From: Alphaproteobacteria bacterium
GTDB lineage: Bacteria; Pseudomonadota; Alphaproteobacteria; ATCC43930; CGMCC-115725
Reading direction: 5' to 3'
Length of the DNA stretch: 64,000 bases
Assembly: GCA_028871455.1 (NCBI GenBank)
Contig: JAGWNF010000004.1
Span: forward strand, 62,001 to 126,000
Under the pieces are notes generated by a model that had not been told where the DNA came from, did not search any database, and worked only from the letters and a program-made list of their open reading frames with translations. Each line of letters begins with the position of its first letter. Position 1 is the first letter of the stretch. The position numbers were made by a program, and so were the translations under genes. Below, in pieces: positions 10,386 through 19,503 of this stretch.

Positions 10386-11762
10386 CTATTCCGCCGCCTT
10401 GGCCTTGGGGTCGGGCAGCTTGGTGCGGAGGGTGACGAATTCCTCCGACGCCGTCGGATGGATGCCGATGGTGCGGTCGAATTGCTTCTTGGTGGCGCCG
10501 CAGGTGAGCGCGACGGCGAGGCCGCCGATGATCTCGGGCGCGTCGGGCCCGATCATGTGCGCGCCGAGCACGCGGTCGCTGGCGCGGTCGACGATCAGCT
10601 TCATCAGCGTCTTCTCGTCGCGGCCGGAGAGCGTGTTCTTGAGCGGCCGGAAGAGCGTGCGATAGACGTCGATCGCGGCGAACTGCGCGCGCGCCTCGCG
10701 CTCGGTCAAGCCGACGGCGCCGATGGTGGGATTGGAGAACACCGCGGTCGGCACCACGTCGAGCCGGGCGCTGGTCGGATTGTCGTTGAAGAGGGTCTCG
10801 GCCAGGGCGCGGCCTTCGGCGATCGCGGTCGGCGTCAGGTTGAGCATGTCGGTGGCGTCGCCGATGGCGTAGACGTTGGGCACCGAGCTGCGCGACCACT
10901 CGTCGACCCTGATCGCGCCGGTCTCGGGATGGAGCGCGACGCCGATCTCGGCGAGGCCCATGCCGGTGGTGTTGGGCAGCCGGCCGGTGGCGTACATGAC
11001 GACATCGGCCGAAAGCTCGCCGCCCGCCTTGGTCGTCAGGTTGAAGCCTTCGCGCTCCGGCTCGATCGCCGCGATCTCGGTGCGGGTGTGGATGACGATG
11101 CCGCGGGCGCGCATCGCCTGCGCCAGGTGAACGCGGACGTCGTCGTCGAAGCCGTTGAGCAATTCCTCGCCGCGGATCACCATCTGCACCGCGGCGCCGA
11201 GGCCGTGGAAGATGCCGGCGAACTCGACGGCGATGTAGCCGCCGCCGACGATGACGATGTTGCGCGGCAGGGTCGGCAGGTCGAGCGCCTCGTTCGACGA
11301 GATGACGTGCTCGACGCCGGGGATCTTCGGCGTCACCGGATGGCCGCCGATGGCGAGCAGGATGTGGGCGGCGGTCAAGCGCTGGCCGCCGACCTCGATG
11401 GTGTGCGCGTCGAGCAGCTTGGCGCGGCCTTCGATCAGCCGCGCGCCGGCATCGGCCAGCATCTTGCGGTAGACGCCTTCGAGCCGCGAGGTTTCCTGAT
11501 TCTTCGCCGCGATCAGTTCGGGCCAGGAATGCGCCGGCGGCGCGACGTGCCAGCCATAGCCGGCGGCATCCTCGACGTCGTCGGCAAAGTGCGCGGCATA
11601 GACCAAGAGCTTCTTCGGCACGCAGCCGCGCAACACGCAGGTGCCGCCGACCCGGCCCGCCTCGCAGATGGCGACGCGGGCGCCGTGGCTCGCGGCGCGG
11701 CGCGAGGCGGCGACGCCACCCGAGCCGGCGCCGATGGTGAAGAGGTCGAAGTCGTATTCCAT
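10386..11762 (-). CDS. gor: Glutathione-disulfide reductase
   Basis: 458 residues. Cytoplasmic FAD enzyme that reduces GSSG to GSH with NADPH. The FAD-binding GAGSGG is at residues 11-16. The redox disulfide Cys42/Cys47 sits in GGTCVLRGCVPKK. The NADPH fold reads VGGGYIAVEFAG, and the C-terminal proton relay is GIHPTASEEF. Length is normal. ATG at 11762. The gene is flanked on both sides by the same palindromic repeat (copies 1 and 2). Confidence 0.95.
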   Translation of the reverse strand: MEYDFDLFTIGAGSGGVAASRRAASHGARVAICEAGRVGGTCVLRGCVPKKLLVYAAHFADDVEDAAGYGWHVAPPAHSWPELIAAKNQETSRLEGVYRKMLADAGARLIEGRAKLLDAHTIEVGGQRLTAAHILLAIGGHPVTPKIPGVEHVISSNEALDLPTLPRNIVIVGGGYIAVEFAGIFHGLGAAVQMVIRGEELLNGFDDDVRVHLAQAMRARGIVIHTRTEIAAIEPEREGFNLTTKAGGELSADVVMYATGRLPNTTGMGLAEIGVALHPETGAIRVDEWSRSSVPNVYAIGDATDMLNLTPTAIAEGRALAETLFNDNPTSARLDVVPTAVFSNPTIGAVGLTEREARAQFAAIDVYRTLFRPLKNTLSGRDEKTLMKLIVDRASDRVLGAHMIGPDAPEIIGGLAVALTCGATKKQFDRTIGIHPTASEEFVTLRTKLPDPKAKAAE

Positions 11763-13057: not shown

Positions 13058-13804
13058 TCAGCAGCTGCGAGTTCGCCAGCGGATGACCCCCTCACCCTGC
13101 CCTCTCCCCCTTTCAGGGGGCGAGGGAGAAAAAGAAGACGGGGGCGAGGGATTTTCCGTATCCGCGGCTGGCGACCCCTCACCCTGCCCTCTCCCCGCAA
13201 GCGGGGCGAGGGTTGAAGGAATACCGAGCGGGGCGCCGGCGGCGAGGCTGGCGCCCGTCTCGGCCAGGCGCTTGAGGCGTTCGAGCAGAATGGTGCGCGC
13301 GTCGCGGCCGTCCTTGCGCGCATAGGGCGGCGGCACCGCCGGCACGATCTTATCGAAGACGCCGAGGTGGCGCGCCAGGGCGTCGATCGCGCGCGACTTG
13401 CTGTGGAGCTTGACACGCAGGCCCGCACCCTCGCGGGGCGCCGCGAGCTCGGCGATGGCGGCGCGGTGATGCGGCGAGATCTGGTCCTTGGGACGGAGCG
13501 TGATGTCGTCAGCGCCGGTCCAGTCGAGCACGTCGCCGATATCGGCGAAGGCGACGCGGGCGAGCTCCAGGAGCACGCGCTCGCGCGCGACCTGGGCGCG
13601 GCGCGCTTCGGCGGCGCGGCCCTGGCGGATGGCTTCGGCGATATAGGGCAGCCGGCGCAGACGGCAGGCGCTCTCGGTGGCGCCCTTCGCCGAATAACCG
13701 GCGCGGATGGCGGCCTCGCGGCCGATGCCGGTGAGCAGGAACTGCTCGACGAATTTCTGCTGCCGCACATTGAGCGGCCGCTTGCGGTTGCGGCGATAGG
13801 CCAT
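13058..13804 (-). CDS. Phage-type terminase small subunit, orphan, with repeat-derived C-terminal tail
   Basis: 248 residues. The first 175 match the terminase small-subunit family: a DNA-binding N-terminus LNVRQQKFVEQFLLTGIGR, then AAIRAGYS..SACRLRRLPYI, and later VFDKIVP. From about residue 185 the protein is a translation of palindromic repeat copies 6 and 5 (APLAGRGQGEG and PSPPERGRGQGEG), so the natural C-terminus has been replaced. No large terminase, portal or capsid gene is nearby: this is a remnant or a domesticated orphan. A plausible original tail (FPASFTVFRK then stop) survives out of frame around 12892-12975. Confidence 0.8.
   Translation of the reverse strand: MAYRRNRKRPLNVRQQKFVEQFLLTGIGREAAIRAGYSAKGATESACRLRRLPYIAEAIRQGRAAEARRAQVARERVLLELARVAFADIGDVLDWTGADDITLRPKDQISPHHRAAIAELAAPREGAGLRVKLHSKSRAIDALARHLGVFDKIVPAVPPPYARKDGRDARTILLERLKRLAETGASLAAGAPLGIPSTLAPLAGRGQGEGSPAADTENPSPPSSFSPSPPERGRGQGEGVIRWRTRSC
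13087..13127. repeat. Dispersed palindromic element, copy 5
   Basis: CCCCTCACCCTGCC head, stem CTCTCCCCC / GGGGGCGAGGG with a TTTCA loop; lies inside the terminase reading frame. Confidence 0.85.
13175..13213. repeat. Dispersed palindromic element, copy 6
   Basis: CCCCTCACCCTGCC head, stem CTCTCCCCGC / GCGGGGCGAGGG. It lies inside the terminase reading frame, at the point where family resemblance stops. Confidence 0.85.
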
Positions 13805-13935: not shown

Positions 13936-14043
13936 TTATGAACCCTCCCCCTTCGAGGGGGAGGAAATGGGAGGGAGCGTCCAGCCGATGCGGTGAAGCG
14001 CCCGCAGAACCTGGCCCGCTTTCGCGGCCGGCCAGACGCTCAC
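13936..14043 (-). pseudogene. hicA: hicA toxin remnant, truncated by a palindromic repeat
   Basis: 35 codons. The GTG at 14043 overlaps the hicB stop as GTGA, the usual spacing for coupled TA genes. Residues 1-23 (KAGQVLRALHRIGWTL) match the start of HicA toxins. From codon 24 the sequence is repeat copy 8 (PPISSPSKGEGS, then stop). The conserved GSH motif carrying the catalytic His, expected soon after this point, is gone, so the toxin should be dead. Confidence 0.8.
13943..13976. repeat. Dispersed palindromic element, copy 8
   Basis: AACCCTCCCCC-TTCGA-GGGGGAGG with the tail AAATGGGAGGG; forms the 3' end of the broken hicA. Confidence 0.8.
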
Positions 14044-14401: not shown

Positions 14402-14418
14402 TGTGTATGATATACACA
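14402..14418. promoter_or_regulatory. Palindromic operator of the intact hicAB operon
   Basis: TGTGTAT-GAT-ATACACA: 7-bp arms and a 3-base centre, ending on the A of the hicA ATG. Ribbon-helix-helix HicB proteins repress by binding such sites; position over the start region suggests autoregulation of hicA transcription. Confidence 0.65.
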
Positions 14419-14609
14419 TGAATAGCCGCGACGTGATCCGCGCGATCGAGGCGGATGGCTGGCGGCTGATCCGGGTGCGCGGGAGCCACAACCAATATCG
14501 CCACGGTACCAAGCCCGGTCTCGTGACGGTTCCGCATCCGAAGAAAGAGCTGCCCAAAGGCACGTTGCGAGGCATCGAGCGGCAAGCGGGCATTCGGCTG
14601 AACAGGTGA
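14418..14609 (+). CDS. hicA: HicA mRNA interferase toxin
   Basis: 63 residues, a double-stranded-RNA-binding-like fold. The catalytic His is in RVRGSHNQYRH, and the family tail reads PKKELPKGTLRGIERQAGI. The ATG at 14418 directly follows the operator; the open frame upstream of it does not resemble HicA. Four bases separate it from hicB. It should cleave translated mRNA unless bound by the HicB downstream. Length and motifs are intact. Confidence 0.92.
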   Translation: MNSRDVIRAIEADGWRLIRVRGSHNQYRHGTKPGLVTVPHPKKELPKGTLRGIERQAGIRLNR

Positions 14610-14613
14610 AAGC

Positions 14614-15003
14614 ATGCGGCACTACATCGGCCTGATCCATAAGGAAGCGGACAGCGACTTCGGCATCTCGTTTCCGGATTTTCCCGGCTGCGTCTCCGCC
14701 GGCAGTACGCTCGACGAGGCGCTCGCCATGGGTCGCGAGGCGCTCGAAGGCCACATTGAAGCGATGGCCGAAGCGGGCGAGCCGATTCCTGAACCGTCCG
14801 ACGTCGATACGGTGATGGAGGATCCGGAGAACCGCGACGGCGTGGTCGTGCTCGTGCTGGCGCCGGACCTTGGCGGAAAAGCGGTGCGCGTGAACGTGAC
14901 GCTGCCCGAAGGATTGCTCCAGCGGATCGACGAAGCGGCGCCGAACCGTTCGCGCTTTCTCGCGGAAGCGGCGGAGAAATTGTTGGAGCGGAAGAGAGCA
15001 TGA
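14614..15003 (+). CDS. hicB: HicB antitoxin with ribbon-helix-helix domain
   Basis: 129 residues. The N-terminal HicB fold is seen in DFGISFPDFPGCVSAGSTLDEA. The C-terminal DNA-binding RHH is seen in KAVRVNVTLPEGLLQRIDEAA..NRSRFLAEAA. It neutralises HicA and represses the operon, probably through the palindrome at 14402-14418. Its stop overlaps the next ORF as ATGA. Confidence 0.92.
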   Translation: MRHYIGLIHKEADSDFGISFPDFPGCVSAGSTLDEALAMGREALEGHIEAMAEAGEPIPEPSDVDTVMEDPENRDGVVVLVLAPDLGGKAVRVNVTLPEGLLQRIDEAAPNRSRFLAEAAEKLLERKRA

Positions 15004-15197
15004 ACGAACCGATTGAGAAACGCACGACTGGCACCTGGCAGGCGCTTGTGCTCGCCGATGCGAACCTGGCCGAGTTGGTACGAAAGGGATGGCTCACGCT
15101 GCCGACGCTGTCGGCTGAAGGTGCACCACCCAGCCTGCCCGTGGCGAAACTTGACGAGCTGCTCGCCGAACTCAGGGATGATCGCGACGCGCGTTGA
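15000..15197 (+). CDS. Short ORF coupled to hicB, 65 aa, possible antitoxin fragment
   Basis: The ATG overlaps the hicB stop (ATGA), so translational coupling is possible. The sequence WQALVLADANLAELVRKGWL...LDELLAELRDDRDAR resembles, only loosely, the C-terminal tails of Phd-like antitoxins. It may be the surviving tail of another antitoxin joined to the hic operon. Function unknown. Confidence 0.45.
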   Translation: MNEPIEKRTTGTWQALVLADANLAELVRKGWLTLPTLSAEGAPPSLPVAKLDELLAELRDDRDAR

Positions 15198-15215
15198 TCG
15201 TACGCCAAACACCGG

Positions 15216-15548
15216 ATGAGTAAGAACTCGGCGGCGGAGCTGCACGTGCCGGCGAACCGGATCAGCGCCATATTCCACGGCACGCGCGGCATCACCGCCG
15301 ACACGGCGATGCGCCTCGGCCGCACCTTCAACACGACGGCGGAATTCTGGCTCAATCTCCAGACGACGCACGACTTGACCAAGGCGCAGGCGGAAGTGGG
15401 CGCCGAGATCGAGCGCCGCGTGCGGCGTAAAACGCCACAACTCGGAGCGTCTTTGTATAATGTTTTTGATCTGCGCCGCAAAGACCAAAAAATAATTTCT
15501 AATTACCTCGTTTCGATCATCCTCACTTCATCATCTTCCAAACCATAG
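15216..15548 (+). pseudogene. HigA-family antitoxin lacking its N-terminus, with foreign C-terminus
   Basis: 110 codons. Residues 1-75 match the middle of HigA/VapI HTH antitoxins: MSKNSAAELHVPANRISAI, then HGTRGITADTAMRLGR and TTAEFWLNLQ. The usual first 20-25 residues (PGE..REE..LG) are missing, and nothing like them lies upstream. After about residue 75 the sequence turns AT-rich and no longer resembles HigA; it runs into the antisense methylase fragment. No HigB toxin is adjacent. Confidence 0.7.
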
Positions 15549-15712
15549 AGTTCAAAAATTTCGTTGTTTAATTCGGCTTCCTGCCGAGCGAGATCCGACT
15601 CCACCTTGGCGAGTTCCTTCTCCAGGTCCGTAATCTGCTTAACCAACGCGATATCAAACGGCATCTCAGAAATCTTTCCATGTTTATCCTTTTTTATTTC
15701 GCGAGAACGTAG
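15503..15712 (-). pseudogene. 3' fragment of an N6-adenine DNA methylase (restriction-modification type)
   Basis: About 70 codons ending at the TAA at 15503. The translation contains REIKKDKHGKISEMPFDIAL, then LVKQITDLEKELAKVES, then AELNNEIFELYGLEDDEV. This is the C-terminal coiled coil and terminal ELYGL motif typical of Eco57I-like and related R-M methylases. There is no start, and the frame breaks at about 15710 where a DUF262 fragment begins on the other strand. The stretch is clearly AT-richer than its surroundings. Confidence 0.7.
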
Positions 15713-15872
15713 CGCTTGCCTGAAATGCAGCGTCGCTACGTCTGGCGGTCGACGCGCGTGCGCGATCTTATGGACTCTCTTTATCGCGGCTACCCATCTG
15801 GCGCGATTCTACTTTGGGAAACAGACGAGGTGGTCCCACTTCAGCCAATGGCTGTTGCGCAGCGAGCAAACC
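15713..15872 (+). pseudogene. 5' fragment of a DUF262 (GmrSD-like) protein
   Basis: The translation from the TTG at 15716, LPEMQRRYVWRSTRVRDLMD, continues SLYRGYPSGAILLWETDE. It carries the R-x-YVW and G-x-L-W signatures of the DUF262 N-terminal domain, known from modification-dependent nucleases and other defence proteins. A stop sits just before it, where the first residues should be. It ends abruptly at the glmS-tail fragment. Junctions on both sides show it is a scrap. Confidence 0.7.
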
Positions 15873-15878
15873 CATATC

Positions 15879-16033
<155 letters not shown>

Positions 16034-16072
16034 GTCCGCAGCGTCGTCCCTCACCCGCGAGGCATCGGCCCA

Positions 16073-16149
16073 CCCCTCACCCTCCCGCTGCGCGGGGCGA
16101 GGGAATAATTGAAGACGCCCCTCACCCTCCCGCTACGCGGGGCGAGGGG
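16073..16149. repeat. Dispersed palindromic element, copies 10 and 11 in tandem
   Basis: Two near-identical units, CCCCTCACCCTCCCGCT(G/A)CGCGGGGCGAGGG. They start at 16073 and 16118, 45 bases apart, and both are followed by an (A)CAATTGAAG-like tail. Local tandem duplication. Confidence 0.85.
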
Positions 16150-16215
16150 ACAATTGAAGCGGGCGGAGAGAAAGAGTCAGCGCGCCGTCACGCGCCGCGA
16201 CAACGGGAAGCGGTC

Positions 16216-16416
16216 TTACACCGCCTCGAATTCCAGAGCCGTCGGCTTCAAATTCGGCGCGCGCTTGGAAAGGTCGAGCATCTCGATGCCCACGACTTCG
16301 TTCCGCTCGTTGTAATCCAGGATTACGCCCGGCGAGACTTCTGCCGATTCGACGATTTTGGAATCGTCGAGCCGCAAATACAACGCGTCAGCCTTTTTAT
16401 CGACATGCAGTCTCAT
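16216..16416 (-). CDS. DUF2283 family protein
   Basis: 66 residues, the whole DUF2283 domain: MRLHVDKKADALYLRLDD, then SPGVILDYNERNEVVGIEML. DUF2283 genes often sit next to DUF4258 genes and behave like small toxin-antitoxin pairs, though this is not settled. Here the ATG overlaps the stop of a 5'-truncated DUF4258 gene (ATGA). Confidence 0.9.
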   Translation of the reverse strand: MRLHVDKKADALYLRLDDSKIVESAEVSPGVILDYNERNEVVGIEMLDLSKRAPNLKPTALEFEAV

Positions 16417-16578
16417 AACTTGCCTTTCATGGCTCGATCGAAGAATACGCTTACAACCCGTTTAGGCTCAACGGCCGTGTTCACGGCAACGCGCAAGACC
16501 CGGCCACCGAACTCGGGAATTCGCCGGAAACGGCGTTCGACCGTCGGATCGCTCGGATCGCCGCTTCGCGGCCCGCCA
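16413..16578 (-). pseudogene. DUF4258 protein, 3' half only
   Basis: The translation DPTVERRFRRIPEFGGRVLR runs on through VVSVFFDRAMKGKL to a TGA that overlaps the DUF2283 ATG. This is the C-terminal half of a DUF4258 (BrnT/RelE-like fold) protein. There is no start codon, and a stop in the same frame lies near 16585, right beside repeat copy 12. The partner of DUF2283 has lost its 5' half. Confidence 0.65.
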
Positions 16579-16589
16579 AGTCAAAGCAG

Positions 16590-16616
16590 CCCTCTCCCCC
16601 TCACGGGGGCGAGGGT
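16590..16616. repeat. Dispersed palindromic element, copy 12 (headless)
   Basis: Only the stem CCTCTCCCCCTCACGGGGGCGAGGG; abuts the broken 5' end of the DUF4258 gene. Confidence 0.8.
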
Positions 16617-16671
16617 TCGGTAGCTTTGCGGAGCAACCGCGCATTCGATGTTAGCGCCGAGCGCGGCACGT

Positions 16672-16721
16672 CACCCCCACCCTAACCCTCCCCCCTCGAG
16701 GGGGAGGGTATGGGAGGGGGG
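16672..16721. repeat. Dispersed palindromic element, copy 13
   Basis: CACCCCCACCCTAACCCT head, CCCTCGAGGG centre and a GGTATGGGAGGGGGG tail. It is followed by a 45-base segment shared with copy 4. Confidence 0.85.
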
Positions 16722-16768
16722 CTTGCGGTGGCGGTCGCATCAGTGGCAGTGAGTTCGCGAGCGGACGG

Positions 16769-16823
16769 CCCCTCACCTGCCGACCGCTCTTCGCGGTCGG
16801 CCTCCCCCTCACGGGGGCGAGGG
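16769..16823. repeat. Dispersed palindromic element, copy 14, with nested hairpin
   Basis: The CCCCTCACC head and CCTCCCCCTCACGGGGGCGAGGG body are separated by CCGACCGC-TCTTC-GCGGTCGG, an extra perfect 8-bp hairpin. Same insertion position as in copies 7 and 15. Confidence 0.8.
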
Positions 16824-16853
16824 TACCAACGCGCAGTCGCGCGCCAGCACCCT

Positions 16854-17186
16854 TCACGCCGCCGGCTTGAAGATGATGCGGCCGCCTTTGCGCGTCTTCG
16901 CGCGCGGCCGGACGACGATCTCGACGTCGCGGCCGAACGCCGTCAGAAAGCCCATCAGGCGATCGACCGAATATTCGCGGAAGTGGCCATTGAACAGACG
17001 CGAGACTTCGGGCTGGCTGATGCCCATGCGATCGCCGGCCTCCGCCTGGGTCAGCTTGCGTGCCGCCGCGAGCCGGTAGATTTCGGAAACGATCTGCGCC
17101 TTGAGCAGGTGACCCTTAGCATCCGGCAGGCCGAGATCGGCGAAGATGTTGCCGCTGCCCGGCTCGATTTTTGCCCGTCGCGCCAT
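16854..17186 (-). CDS. HigA-type antitoxin, XRE HTH
   Basis: 110 residues. HTH seen in LTQAEAGDRMGISQPEVSRLF, followed by VDRLMGFLTAFGRDVEIVVRP, the typical XRE tail of phage-derived Gp49/HigB2-linked antitoxins. It starts 5 bases after the stop of the toxin gene, the reversed toxin-antitoxin order normal for hig loci. It probably represses the promoter at 17574-17602. Confidence 0.88.
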   Translation of the reverse strand: MARRAKIEPGSGNIFADLGLPDAKGHLLKAQIVSEIYRLAAARKLTQAEAGDRMGISQPEVSRLFNGHFREYSVDRLMGFLTAFGRDVEIVVRPRAKTRKGGRIIFKPAA

Positions 17187-17191
17187 GTCGC

Positions 17192-17566
17192 TTACTCCTT
17201 TGCAAACCGTGCCGCATGATCGAAAGCGGCATCCCGCAGGCGGCGCTCGATCAGCTCTAGATCGCGCTGCGGCGTGGCAATGCCGCGCTTCGATTTCTTC
17301 TGAAAGGCGTGCAGCACGTAAATCGCGTCCTTGAACCGCACCGTGTAAACCGCCCGATAGGCGTTGCCGTCGAATTCCGCCACCAATTCCACCGTTCCGG
17401 CGCCGAAGCCTTTGAGCGGCTTCGCCGCTGGCGGATGCTGACCGGTCTGCGCCAGAAACAACGCGAAGCCGAAACCGTCCTGCACGCGCGGCGGAAAGCG
17501 CTTGTAGTCGCGCTTGCTCGACCCGACCCAGAAAAGCGGGCGAAGCGGCGGCGCGGCGCTCGTCAT
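17192..17566 (-). CDS. HigB/Gp49-family RelE-like toxin
   Basis: 124 residues. Core signature YRAVYTVRFKDAIYVLHAFQ, then KKSKRGIATP and ERRLRDA, the RelE/HigB fold with its basic active-site stretch. The expected action is cleavage of mRNA on the ribosome. The ATG at 17566 lies about 8 bases after the -10 box, so the message may be nearly leaderless. The antitoxin follows directly. Confidence 0.88.
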   Translation of the reverse strand: MTSAAPPLRPLFWVGSSKRDYKRFPPRVQDGFGFALFLAQTGQHPPAAKPLKGFGAGTVELVAEFDGNAYRAVYTVRFKDAIYVLHAFQKKSKRGIATPQRDLELIERRLRDAAFDHAARFAKE

Positions 17567-17573
17567 CGCGCGA

Positions 17574-17602
17574 TTTATATTATGAGTTTATACTCATGTC
17601 AA
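17574..17602 (-). promoter_or_regulatory. higBA promoter with operator in the spacer
   Basis: On the minus strand: TTGACA (17602-17597), 17-base spacer, TATAAA (17579-17574). The spacer contains the inverted repeat ATGAGT-TTAT-ACTCAT (17582-17597, plus-strand reading), a natural binding site for the XRE antitoxin. It is the best sigma-70 promoter I see in the window. Confidence 0.85.
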
Positions 17603-17606
17603 GGTG

Positions 17607-17662
17607 GCCCTCACCCTCCCACCGATGGTGGGCCCCTCCCTCTCCCGCTTCGCGGGCGAGGG
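17607..17662. repeat. Dispersed palindromic element, copy 15, with nested hairpin
   Basis: CCCTCACCCT head, nested CCCACC-GAT-GGTGGG, then CTCTCCCGC / GCGGGCGAGGG. It ends 12 bases from the glmS stop. Confidence 0.8.
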
Positions 17663-17673
17663 AAGACAAAGGC

Positions 17674-19503
17674 CTATTCCACCGTCACGCTCTTCGCCAG
17701 GTTGCGCGGCTGGTCGACGTCGGTGCCCTTGTGCACCGCGACGTGATAGGCCAGGAGCTGCACCGGGATCGCGTAGAGCAAGGGTGCGACGAAGGGATCG
17801 CAGCGCGGCACCTCGATCTCGTGCGCCGACTGGCCGTTGAGCCGTGCCAGGCCCTCGCGGTCGGAGATCATCATCACCTTGCCGCCGCGCGCCAGGACTT
17901 CCTGGACGTTCGAGAGCGTCTTGTCGAAGAGCGCGTCCGACGGGGCAAGCACCACAACCGGCACGTTGTCGGAGATCAGCGCGATGGGCCCGTGCTTCAT
18001 CTCGCCGGCGGCGTAGCCTTCGGCGTGGAGGTAGCTGACCTCCTTCAACTTCAAGGCGCCTTCGAGCGCCAGCGGATAGGCGGTGCCGCGGCCGAGATAG
18101 AGCACGTCGCGCGCGCCGGTTTCGACCAGCCATTCGGCCATCGCCTCGATGCGCGCGTCGTGCGCCAGGACGTCGGCGGCGCGCTCGGGCACTTCGGTGA
18201 GCGCCAGGGTGAGATCGCCCTCGCGCTTGGCGTCGATGGCGCCACGCGACCGGGCGAGCGAGATCGCGAGACAGGCGAGGACGACGAGCTGGGTCGTGAA
18301 GGCCTTGGTCGAGGCGACGCCGATCTCGGGACCGGCCATGGTCTGGAACACCGCGTCGGAGGCGCGGGCGATCGAGCTTTCGGGCTGGTTGACGATCGAC
18401 AGGATGCGCGCGCCCTGTGATTTCGCGTAGCGCAGCGCCGCGAGCGTGTCGGCGGTCTCGCCCGATTGCGAGATGAAGAGCGCGAGGGTGTTCCTGGGCA
18501 CGAGGCCTTCGCGGTAGCGGAACTCCGACGCGATGTCGACCTCGCACGGCAGGCGCGCCAGGCCCTCGATCCAATAGCGCGCGATCAGGCCGGCGTTGTA
18601 GGAGGTGCCGCAGGCGACGATGGCGATGCGCTCGATCGATTTCAGATCGAAGGGCAGCTTGGGCAGGTGGACCGAGCGCGTCGCCGGATTGAAGAGCGCG
18701 CGCAGGGTGTCGCCGATCACCGCCGGCTGCTCGAAGATCTCCTTTTTCATGAAATGCGGATGGCCGGCCTTGCCGATGAGCGCGTCGGAGAGCGCGGTCT
18801 TGCGGATCTCGCGGTTGGCGATGCGGTTCTCGGCGTCGTAGATGGTGGCGCCGTCCTGGCTCACCACCGCCCAGTCGCCTTCCTCGAGATAGACCAGATC
18901 CTGGGTCAGCGGCGCCAAGGCCAGCGCGTCGGAGCCGACATACATCTCGCCGGCGCCATAGCCGATGGCGAGCGGCGAGCCGCGGCGGGCGCAGATGAGG
19001 CTGTCGTGATGGCCGGCGAAAAGCATCACCAGCGCGAAGGCGCCGTGGAGACGGGCGAGCGCGCTCGCCACCGCCTCCTGGGGCGAGGCGCCGCCGTGGA
19101 GATAGCGCGTCAGCAGCATGGCGACGGCTTCGGTGTCGGTTTGGGTTTCGAATTTGTAGCCGGCGGCCGTGAGCTCGGATTTGAGCTCGGAGAAATTCTC
19201 GATGATGCCGTTGTGGACGACGGCGACGCGGTCGGTGGCGATCGGGTGGGCGTTGGTCTCGTTGGGCACGCCGTGGGTCGCCCAGCGGGTGTGGCCGATG
19301 CCGATGCGGCCGGTGACGGGTTCCTTCGCCAGGCGGCGGGCGAGATTGTCGAGCTTGCCCTCGGCGCGGCGGCGGTCGATGTGACCGTTGACCAGCGTGG
19401 CGATGCCGGCGGAATCATAGCCGCGGTACTCGAGGCGCTTCAGGCCTTCGAGCAGCAGCGGCGCCGCCTCGCCCTTGCCGACGATGCCGACAATGCCGCA
19501 CAT
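17674..19503 (-). CDS. glmS: Glutamine--fructose-6-phosphate aminotransferase
   Basis: 609 residues, normal length. Makes glucosamine-6-phosphate, the first step to UDP-GlcNAc for peptidoglycan and LPS. The N-terminal glutaminase has Cys2 after Met (MCGIVGIVG) and HTRWATHG. Two SIS domains follow (CGTSYNAGLI, ISQSGETADTLAAL), and it ends [13 protein letters not shown]. The start at 19503 is fixed by the Met-Cys pair. The start codon overlaps the stop of the DUF559 gene (TGATG). The 3' end is the classic Tn7/genomic-island target and here is followed by the island remnant. Confidence 0.97.
   Translation of the reverse strand: MCGIVGIVGKGEAAPLLLEGLKRLEYRGYDSAGIATLVNGHIDRRRAEGKLDNLARRLAKEPVTGRIGIGHTRWATHGVPNETNAHPIATDRVAVVHNGIIENFSELKSELTAAGYKFETQTDTEAVAMLLTRYLHGGASPQEAVASALARLHGAFALVMLFAGHHDSLICARRGSPLAIGYGAGEMYVGSDALALAPLTQDLVYLEEGDWAVVSQDGATIYDAENRIANREIRKTALSDALIGKAGHPHFMKKEIFEQPAVIGDTLRALFNPATRSVHLPKLPFDLKSIERIAIVACGTSYNAGLIARYWIEGLARLPCEVDIASEFRYREGLVPRNTLALFISQSGETADTLAALRYAKSQGARILSIVNQPESSIARASDAVFQTMAGPEIGVASTKAFTTQLVVLACLAISLARSRGAIDAKREGDLTLALTEVPERAADVLAHDARIEAMAEWLVETGARDVLYLGRGTAYPLALEGALKLKEVSYLHAEGYAAGEMKHGPIALISDNVPVVVLAPSDALFDKTLSNVQEVLARGGKVMMISDREGLARLNGQSAHEIEVPRCDPFVAPLLYAIPVQLLAYHVAVHKGTDVDQPRNLAKSVTVE

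Follow-up and report, generated by a model that had tools for sequence, protein, structure and literature searches.

Accretion of toxin-antitoxin and restriction-type genes downstream of glmS, with a displaced glmS 3' end, in an alphaproteobacterial chromosome

Introduction

How do single toxin-antitoxin (TA) or restriction modules that carry no recombinase spread between chromosomes? This open question is raised by a locus behind glmS in the genome G000, a 3.0-Mb assembly whose nearest named relatives are Rhodospirillales-type Alphaproteobacteria. We analysed a window of 64,000 nucleotides, located in a contig of 172,772 bases, and compared it with other genomes (G001 and following). Genes have accreted on the downstream side of glmS, where added TA and restriction-type genes now separate it from its ancestral neighbour. 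The most recent arrival, a HigBA-like pair together with a DUF2283 gene, is enclosed by the functional glmS on one side and a detached copy of the glmS 3' end on the other, and the scraps beyond that copy are remains of earlier additions. A tail cut off in this way from an essential gene puts the arrivals in order, its synonymous differences reveal an origin of the DNA from a close relative, and such an arrangement lends itself to automated searches of any genome.

Results

Broken defence genes and a displaced glmS tail

The first-pass annotation described four pieces meeting within about 430 bases: a HigA antitoxin, an adenine methylase, a DUF262 nuclease-type protein and the tail of glmS (Table 1). 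The first three are indeed scraps of these genes. The HigA fragment is truncated at its 5' end, as described, and has lost its last few codons as well; covering only positions 26-80 of the 81 of TIGR02607, it does not amount to a full-length HTH antitoxin. The stretch homologous to the congener G001 runs from 15230 to 15426, at 96% identity. The adjoining block has a G+C content of 41.8%, the lowest 275-nt value in the window (64.3% overall), in line with the stretch having been called AT-richer than its flanks. It holds a minus-strand reading frame of 53 codons, which matches positions 1135-1180 of the 1182 of the PADLOC profile REase_MTase_IIG (E 3e-4) and shares 50% identity over 46 aa with the very last C-terminal residues of a DNA methyltransferase from Methylocystis, confirming the 3' end of a methylase. 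The DUF262 piece, likewise correctly recognized as N-terminal core, matches positions 15-53 of PF03235 (E 7e-10) and is 87% identical over 55 aa to residues 21-75 of the intact WP_174040790.1 from a Rhizobium rhizogenes plasmid. Only about 55 residues of the N-terminal domain of this GmrSD/DUF262 restriction protein remain; an intact homologue is present in G024. The methylase and DUF262 genes are not adjacent in the plasmid matches, which provide no sign of a common origin as one system.

The fourth piece is glmS 3' sequence, as annotated, but not the end of the gene. It is a detached copy of 115 nt, comprising the last 37 codons and the stop codon, and the DUF262 fragment ends directly at this stop codon. 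The true glmS ends 1.8 kb away, at 17674, and is intact, as it is full length in nearly all relatives. The two copies of the tail differ at 9 of 115 positions, with a longest identical run of 38 nt. The main omission of the earlier reading is therefore that its glmS tail is a displaced duplicate, which parts the older scraps from a younger intact TA insert and recurs elsewhere; the feature as a whole extends over about 2.4 kb, up to 17674, rather than about 430 bases.

Between the two tails lie an intact toxin-antitoxin pair, a DUF2283 gene and REP-like hairpins. The window thus combines a rebuilt target gene with a displaced 3' fragment at the far end, as in islands of tyrosine integrases. 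Neither the open reading frames of the insert nor a PF00589 search of the contig revealed an integrase gene at a border. We did not find the donor; homologues of HigBA in G010 and G024 reach 74-75%, and the one in G010 is located about 5 kb to the other side of glmS.

Table 1. Features of the glmS downstream region in the window
Feature	Position	Strand	Evidence
gor (glutathione-reductase-like), ancestral downstream-side neighbour of glmS	10386..11762	-	gene order in relatives
HicA toxin, older TA block	14418..14609	+	PF07927, E 5e-23
HicB antitoxin, older genus-shared TA block	14614..15003	+	PF15919, E 6e-33; G001 90%, G003 74%
HigA antitoxin fragment, truncated at both ends	15230..15436	+	TIGR02607, 26-80/81; 96% to G001:C377:9028-9224
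AT-rich block with C-terminal end of type IIG-like DNA methylase	15437..15711	-	reading frame 15503-15664
DUF262 (GmrSD_N) fragment, residues 21-75 (full protein about 566 aa)	15712..15877	+	PF03235; WP_174040790.1
Displaced glmS tail, severed from the gene	15878..15992	-	92% identity to 17673-17787
G+C-rich REP-like hairpin repeats adjoining the displaced tail	15993..16195		repeat family D2
DUF2283 gene, young insert	16216..16416	-	PF10049, E 7e-17
Antitoxin-like HTH gene (HTH_37), young insert	16854..17186	-	PF13744, E 1e-23
Toxin-like gene (Gp49/HigB-RelE type), young insert	17192..17566	-	PF05973, E 8e-21
True glmS 3' end, one repeat copy	17673..17787	-	direct repeat D1
glmS, intact glucosamine-fructose-6-phosphate aminotransferase, 3' end at left	17674..19503	-	ORF; orthologue 94% identical in G003

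Ancestral neighbourhood and turnover in congeners

In G020, G012 and G028, glmS is almost directly followed by gor, and the order glmS-gabD-gor is found in G037, G038, G039 and G056; in these relatives nothing is inserted between glmS and gor or gabD. The window has about 5 kb of small genes separating glmS from the gor block, and given the gene order in the relatives, this segment has accreted. The gor-side block through HicAB is common to G001 and G003, whereas the zone 15003-17674 is different in each. Past the shared part, G001 carries a BrnTA-like pair (recognized by eye), a HigA gene (TIGR02607 1-80 of 81) and further scraps, and G003 carries a nucleotidyltransferase, DUF4160-DUF2442, a glmS tail and a gene for a NucS/AlwI-like nuclease; because the G003 assembly breaks here into two contigs, its joint is inferred. 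As judged from these sequence comparisons, 15003-17674 is the zone of turnover, which supports the earlier suggestion of repeated gain and loss of defence and TA genes at one spot.

Recurrence of displaced tails

Detached tails downstream of glmS, sharing its contig and strand, at a distance of 0.8-1.9 kb, were observed in G000, G003, G010, G013 (two), G041 and G191, that is, in five alphaproteobacterial genomes besides that of the window and mostly beside different TA modules. The cargo is HigBA-like in G000, a nucleotidyltransferase with DUF4160-DUF2442 in G003, MNT-HepT in G010, a cyclase-like gene (by eye) and HicAB in G013, one gene without known family in G041, and ParDE-like in G191. 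The product of the G041 gene, a 172-aa protein encoded between glmS and the tail (L075:3611-4129), has no match in Pfam, PADLOC or NCBIfam. Behind the outermost tail of G013 comes gabD, the ancestral neighbour, and a tail adjoining gabD also occurs in G426, a less certain case with the tail on another contig than glmS; in both, the displaced tail therefore looks like the native copy. Counted from the stop codon, the tails start at -282, -125, -119, -114, -87, about -80 and about -60, three of them within about 12 nt of each other.

When 387 genomes of the class were surveyed, G191 joined the list, along with a few uncertain cases on split contigs; no clear displaced tail emerged from about 170 genomes representing other classes of the phylum (G429 was set aside). 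The sample is biased to the window's family, home of four of the clear cases. G426 was kept out of the counts, as were G390, G059 and G315, with short tails on other contigs than glmS. We rejected the second tail of G022, which proved to be two overlapping contig ends, and did not count G588 (tails at contig ends only), G482 (second copy resembling a diverged paralogue) or G483 and G466 (near-full-length glmS duplicates). The second copy of G483 (L221:8226-10086), 1.1 Mb from the first, is 99.9% identical over 1861 nt and has two overlapping frames, as if frameshifted. We found no account in the literature of displaced glmS tails with TA cargo.

Detached gene ends are concentrated at glmS

As a control, we took the 1263 genes in the fetched loci that have 150 codons or more and searched the 3 kb downstream of each for its last 60 residues. 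Detached ends without a paralogous body were counted; G003 shows one body match, as its tail copy comprises 92 codons. Such ends occur in 6 of 109 glmS loci and 1 of 1154 other genes (Fisher 2e-6). When the window and G191, whose locus had been fetched for its tail, are left out, glmS retains 4 of 107 (Fisher 2e-4). The sole other case is gor in G038, a genome assembled as a single contig: its displaced 3' end measures about 52 nt and lies 2.4 kb downstream (L084:8115-10516), past genes for a LysR-type regulator and a SnoaL-like protein, both recognized by eye. This case suggests a general process rather than an enzyme specific to glmS.

One of the two tail copies is an imported allele

The coding differences between glmS and the displaced tail are synonymous in 8 of 9 instances in G000, 12 of 15 in G003 and 6 of 6 in G010. 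The excess in G000 has a P of about 1e-4 to 5e-4 under neutrality, and against the roughly 28% synonymous changes expected for a non-functional copy, P lies between 1e-5 and 8e-4 across the three. Since the differences are mostly synonymous, the copies diverged under selection, as working alleles in separate lineages, and one of them was imported and not duplicated in place. The tails of these three genomes are each closest to the glmS of their own genome, so the partner of the import was a close relative. Short tails restrict phylogenetic statements, and 115 nt do not resolve by similarity to other genomes which copy is native and which imported. The tails of G041 (4 synonymous, 3 non-synonymous) and G191 (2 and 5) look decayed and may be old or of other origin.

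Discussion

Probable additive insertion anchored in the glmS 3' end

We consider it fairly likely that the locus arose by repeated additive insertion anchored in the 3' end of glmS, through homology-facilitated illegitimate recombination with close relatives. Incoming DNA, with the glmS 3' end of a close relative and different cargo behind it, would pair with the resident glmS. A single homologous crossover in the 3' region would then create a functional chimeric glmS, while the other end would be joined illegitimately just upstream, inside the resident tail, moving this tail and everything behind it about 1-2 kb downstream. Repetition would build up a stratigraphy, with a young intact TA module beside glmS, then the displaced tail, then older decayed scraps. 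Addiction would retain the TA genes while restriction genes decay. For the window, the presumed order is first the HicAB-HigA block common to the genus, second the methylase and DUF262 genes, now scraps, and last the HigBA-like insert, which would have displaced the tail with the scraps behind it.

The architecture fits one homologous and one non-homologous border. The crossover inside glmS was not located, and neither G000 against G003 nor G010 against G019 exhibits a clear sharp change of identity along the gene. The start points of the tails vary from about -282 to -60, as expected of illegitimate joints, and the three near -120 may point to a favoured site. Experimentally, homology-facilitated illegitimate recombination is a rare event (discussed in PMC5361080). 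The strong over-representation of glmS despite this rarity would be explicable only by a long conserved anchor or by selection.

Alternative explanations

The most serious alternative, which we nevertheless regard as unlikely, is site-specific integration, with the glmS 3' end as the attachment site of small tail-carrying cassettes or islands and a recombinase that acts in trans or has since been lost. A rebuilt gene with a displaced 3' fragment is the classic island signature, as set out for tRNA genes in PMC4383910, and both the cluster of three start points from -114 to -125 and the over-representation of glmS among genes agree with such a site. The remaining start points, however, are scattered from -282 to about -60, a comparable tail is displaced at gor, and the inserts of 0.8-1.8 kb carry no recombinase. 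The search for tyrosine recombinases (PF00589) found none on the glmS contig of G000, G010, G013, G041 or G191; the genomes of G041 and G191 have only two matches each, the number expected for XerC/XerD, with which we tentatively equate them. An integron-like cassette port at the conserved glmS 3' end of some Alphaproteobacteria, where small tail-ended TA cassettes would be exchanged between strains by a dedicated recombination activity in trans, is also unlikely.

It is rather doubtful that each displaced tail bounds a once-larger element, of which the integrase and the bulk were deleted and the TA genes left. TA genes tend to be retained. This tendency, the scraps, which show that deletion is common at the site, and the restriction- or Zorya-like genes past the tail in G003 and G010 would suit such decay, but the inserts are small and in many cases consist of one TA module, and no larger island bounded by a tail and equipped with an integrase turned up among the glmS loci examined.

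In-place tandem duplication of the glmS end, with cargo inserted later, is very improbable: the repeat unit of G191 does consist of the tail and a parD-like gene, with mostly non-synonymous differences, but the synonymous counts of G000, G003 and G010 are unexpected for a non-functional copy and disfavour this reading for G000. An assembly artefact at the glmS repeat can be set aside almost entirely; such artefacts do occur, as G022 illustrates, but the copies in the window have no identical run longer than 38 bases, the site lies inside a 172-kb contig, and the architecture is repeated in the independent assemblies G003, G010, G013, G041 and G191. Equally negligible is Tn7-like transposition at attTn7, against which it counts that Tn7 is not known to copy the glmS end. 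Insertion of Tn7 just downstream of glmS and binding of TnsD to the end of the gene are described in PMC2918618.

Relation to known systems

The preferred reading, recombination anchored in a conserved gene end, has a precedent in the orphan immunity arrays of the Vibrio cholerae T6SS, which contain displaced effector ends and for which homology-facilitated illegitimate recombination has been proposed (PMC5361080). As in these arrays, and in the orphan modules of Rhs/CDI systems, a new module stands behind a conserved anchor, the old 3' end is shifted downstream, in those arrays together with the immunity genes, and successive rounds yield an array. Those arrays are anchored in the effector locus, whereas the present anchor is an essential housekeeping gene with no relation to its cargo of TA and restriction genes. 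The architecture is thus known from T6SS immunity arrays and seems to be new at a housekeeping gene. If general, it would allow additive insertions at housekeeping genes to be counted from the trace that each leaves.

Target-rebuilding islands (tRNA islands, phage 21 and e14 at icd) also restore a functional gene and leave a displaced 3' fragment at the far end, but the present inserts are small and lack an integrase, and the length of the displaced fragment is variable. The pdif modules on plasmids of Acinetobacter are short TA cassettes flanked by copies of a recombination site and in this resemble the present inserts; they differ in that their repeats are XerC/XerD sites, which the glmS tail is not known to be. 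Tn7 shares the address immediately downstream of glmS, but leaves no copy of it. No Tn7 gene was found at the locus, and a TniQ search without positive control gave no match in ten genomes, the control genomes being equally silent. A Bacillus cereus island directly behind glmS has been ascribed to Tn7 (PMC2359905).

Additional features of the locus

Between gor and the TA block, a lone phage-type terminase small subunit gene (13058-13804, minus strand; PF03592, E 4e-23) occupies the corresponding position in G001 and G003 with 75-87% identity, as a lone conserved prophage relic. In G010, the region past the displaced tail (L065:3937-6099) contains an OmpA-domain gene with ZorB-like PADLOC hits, followed by a gene for a large membrane protein; the two may belong to an atypical Zorya-like or envelope system. 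The G+C-rich REP-like hairpins of the window, with the sequences CCCTCACCC...GCGAGGG and AACCCTCCCCC...GGGGGAGG, are found at 13941-13975, 16073-16159, 16594-16616, 16684-16718, 16802-16824 and 17601-17672. They are dispersed across G000 and many relatives, often between TA genes and adjoining the displaced tail.
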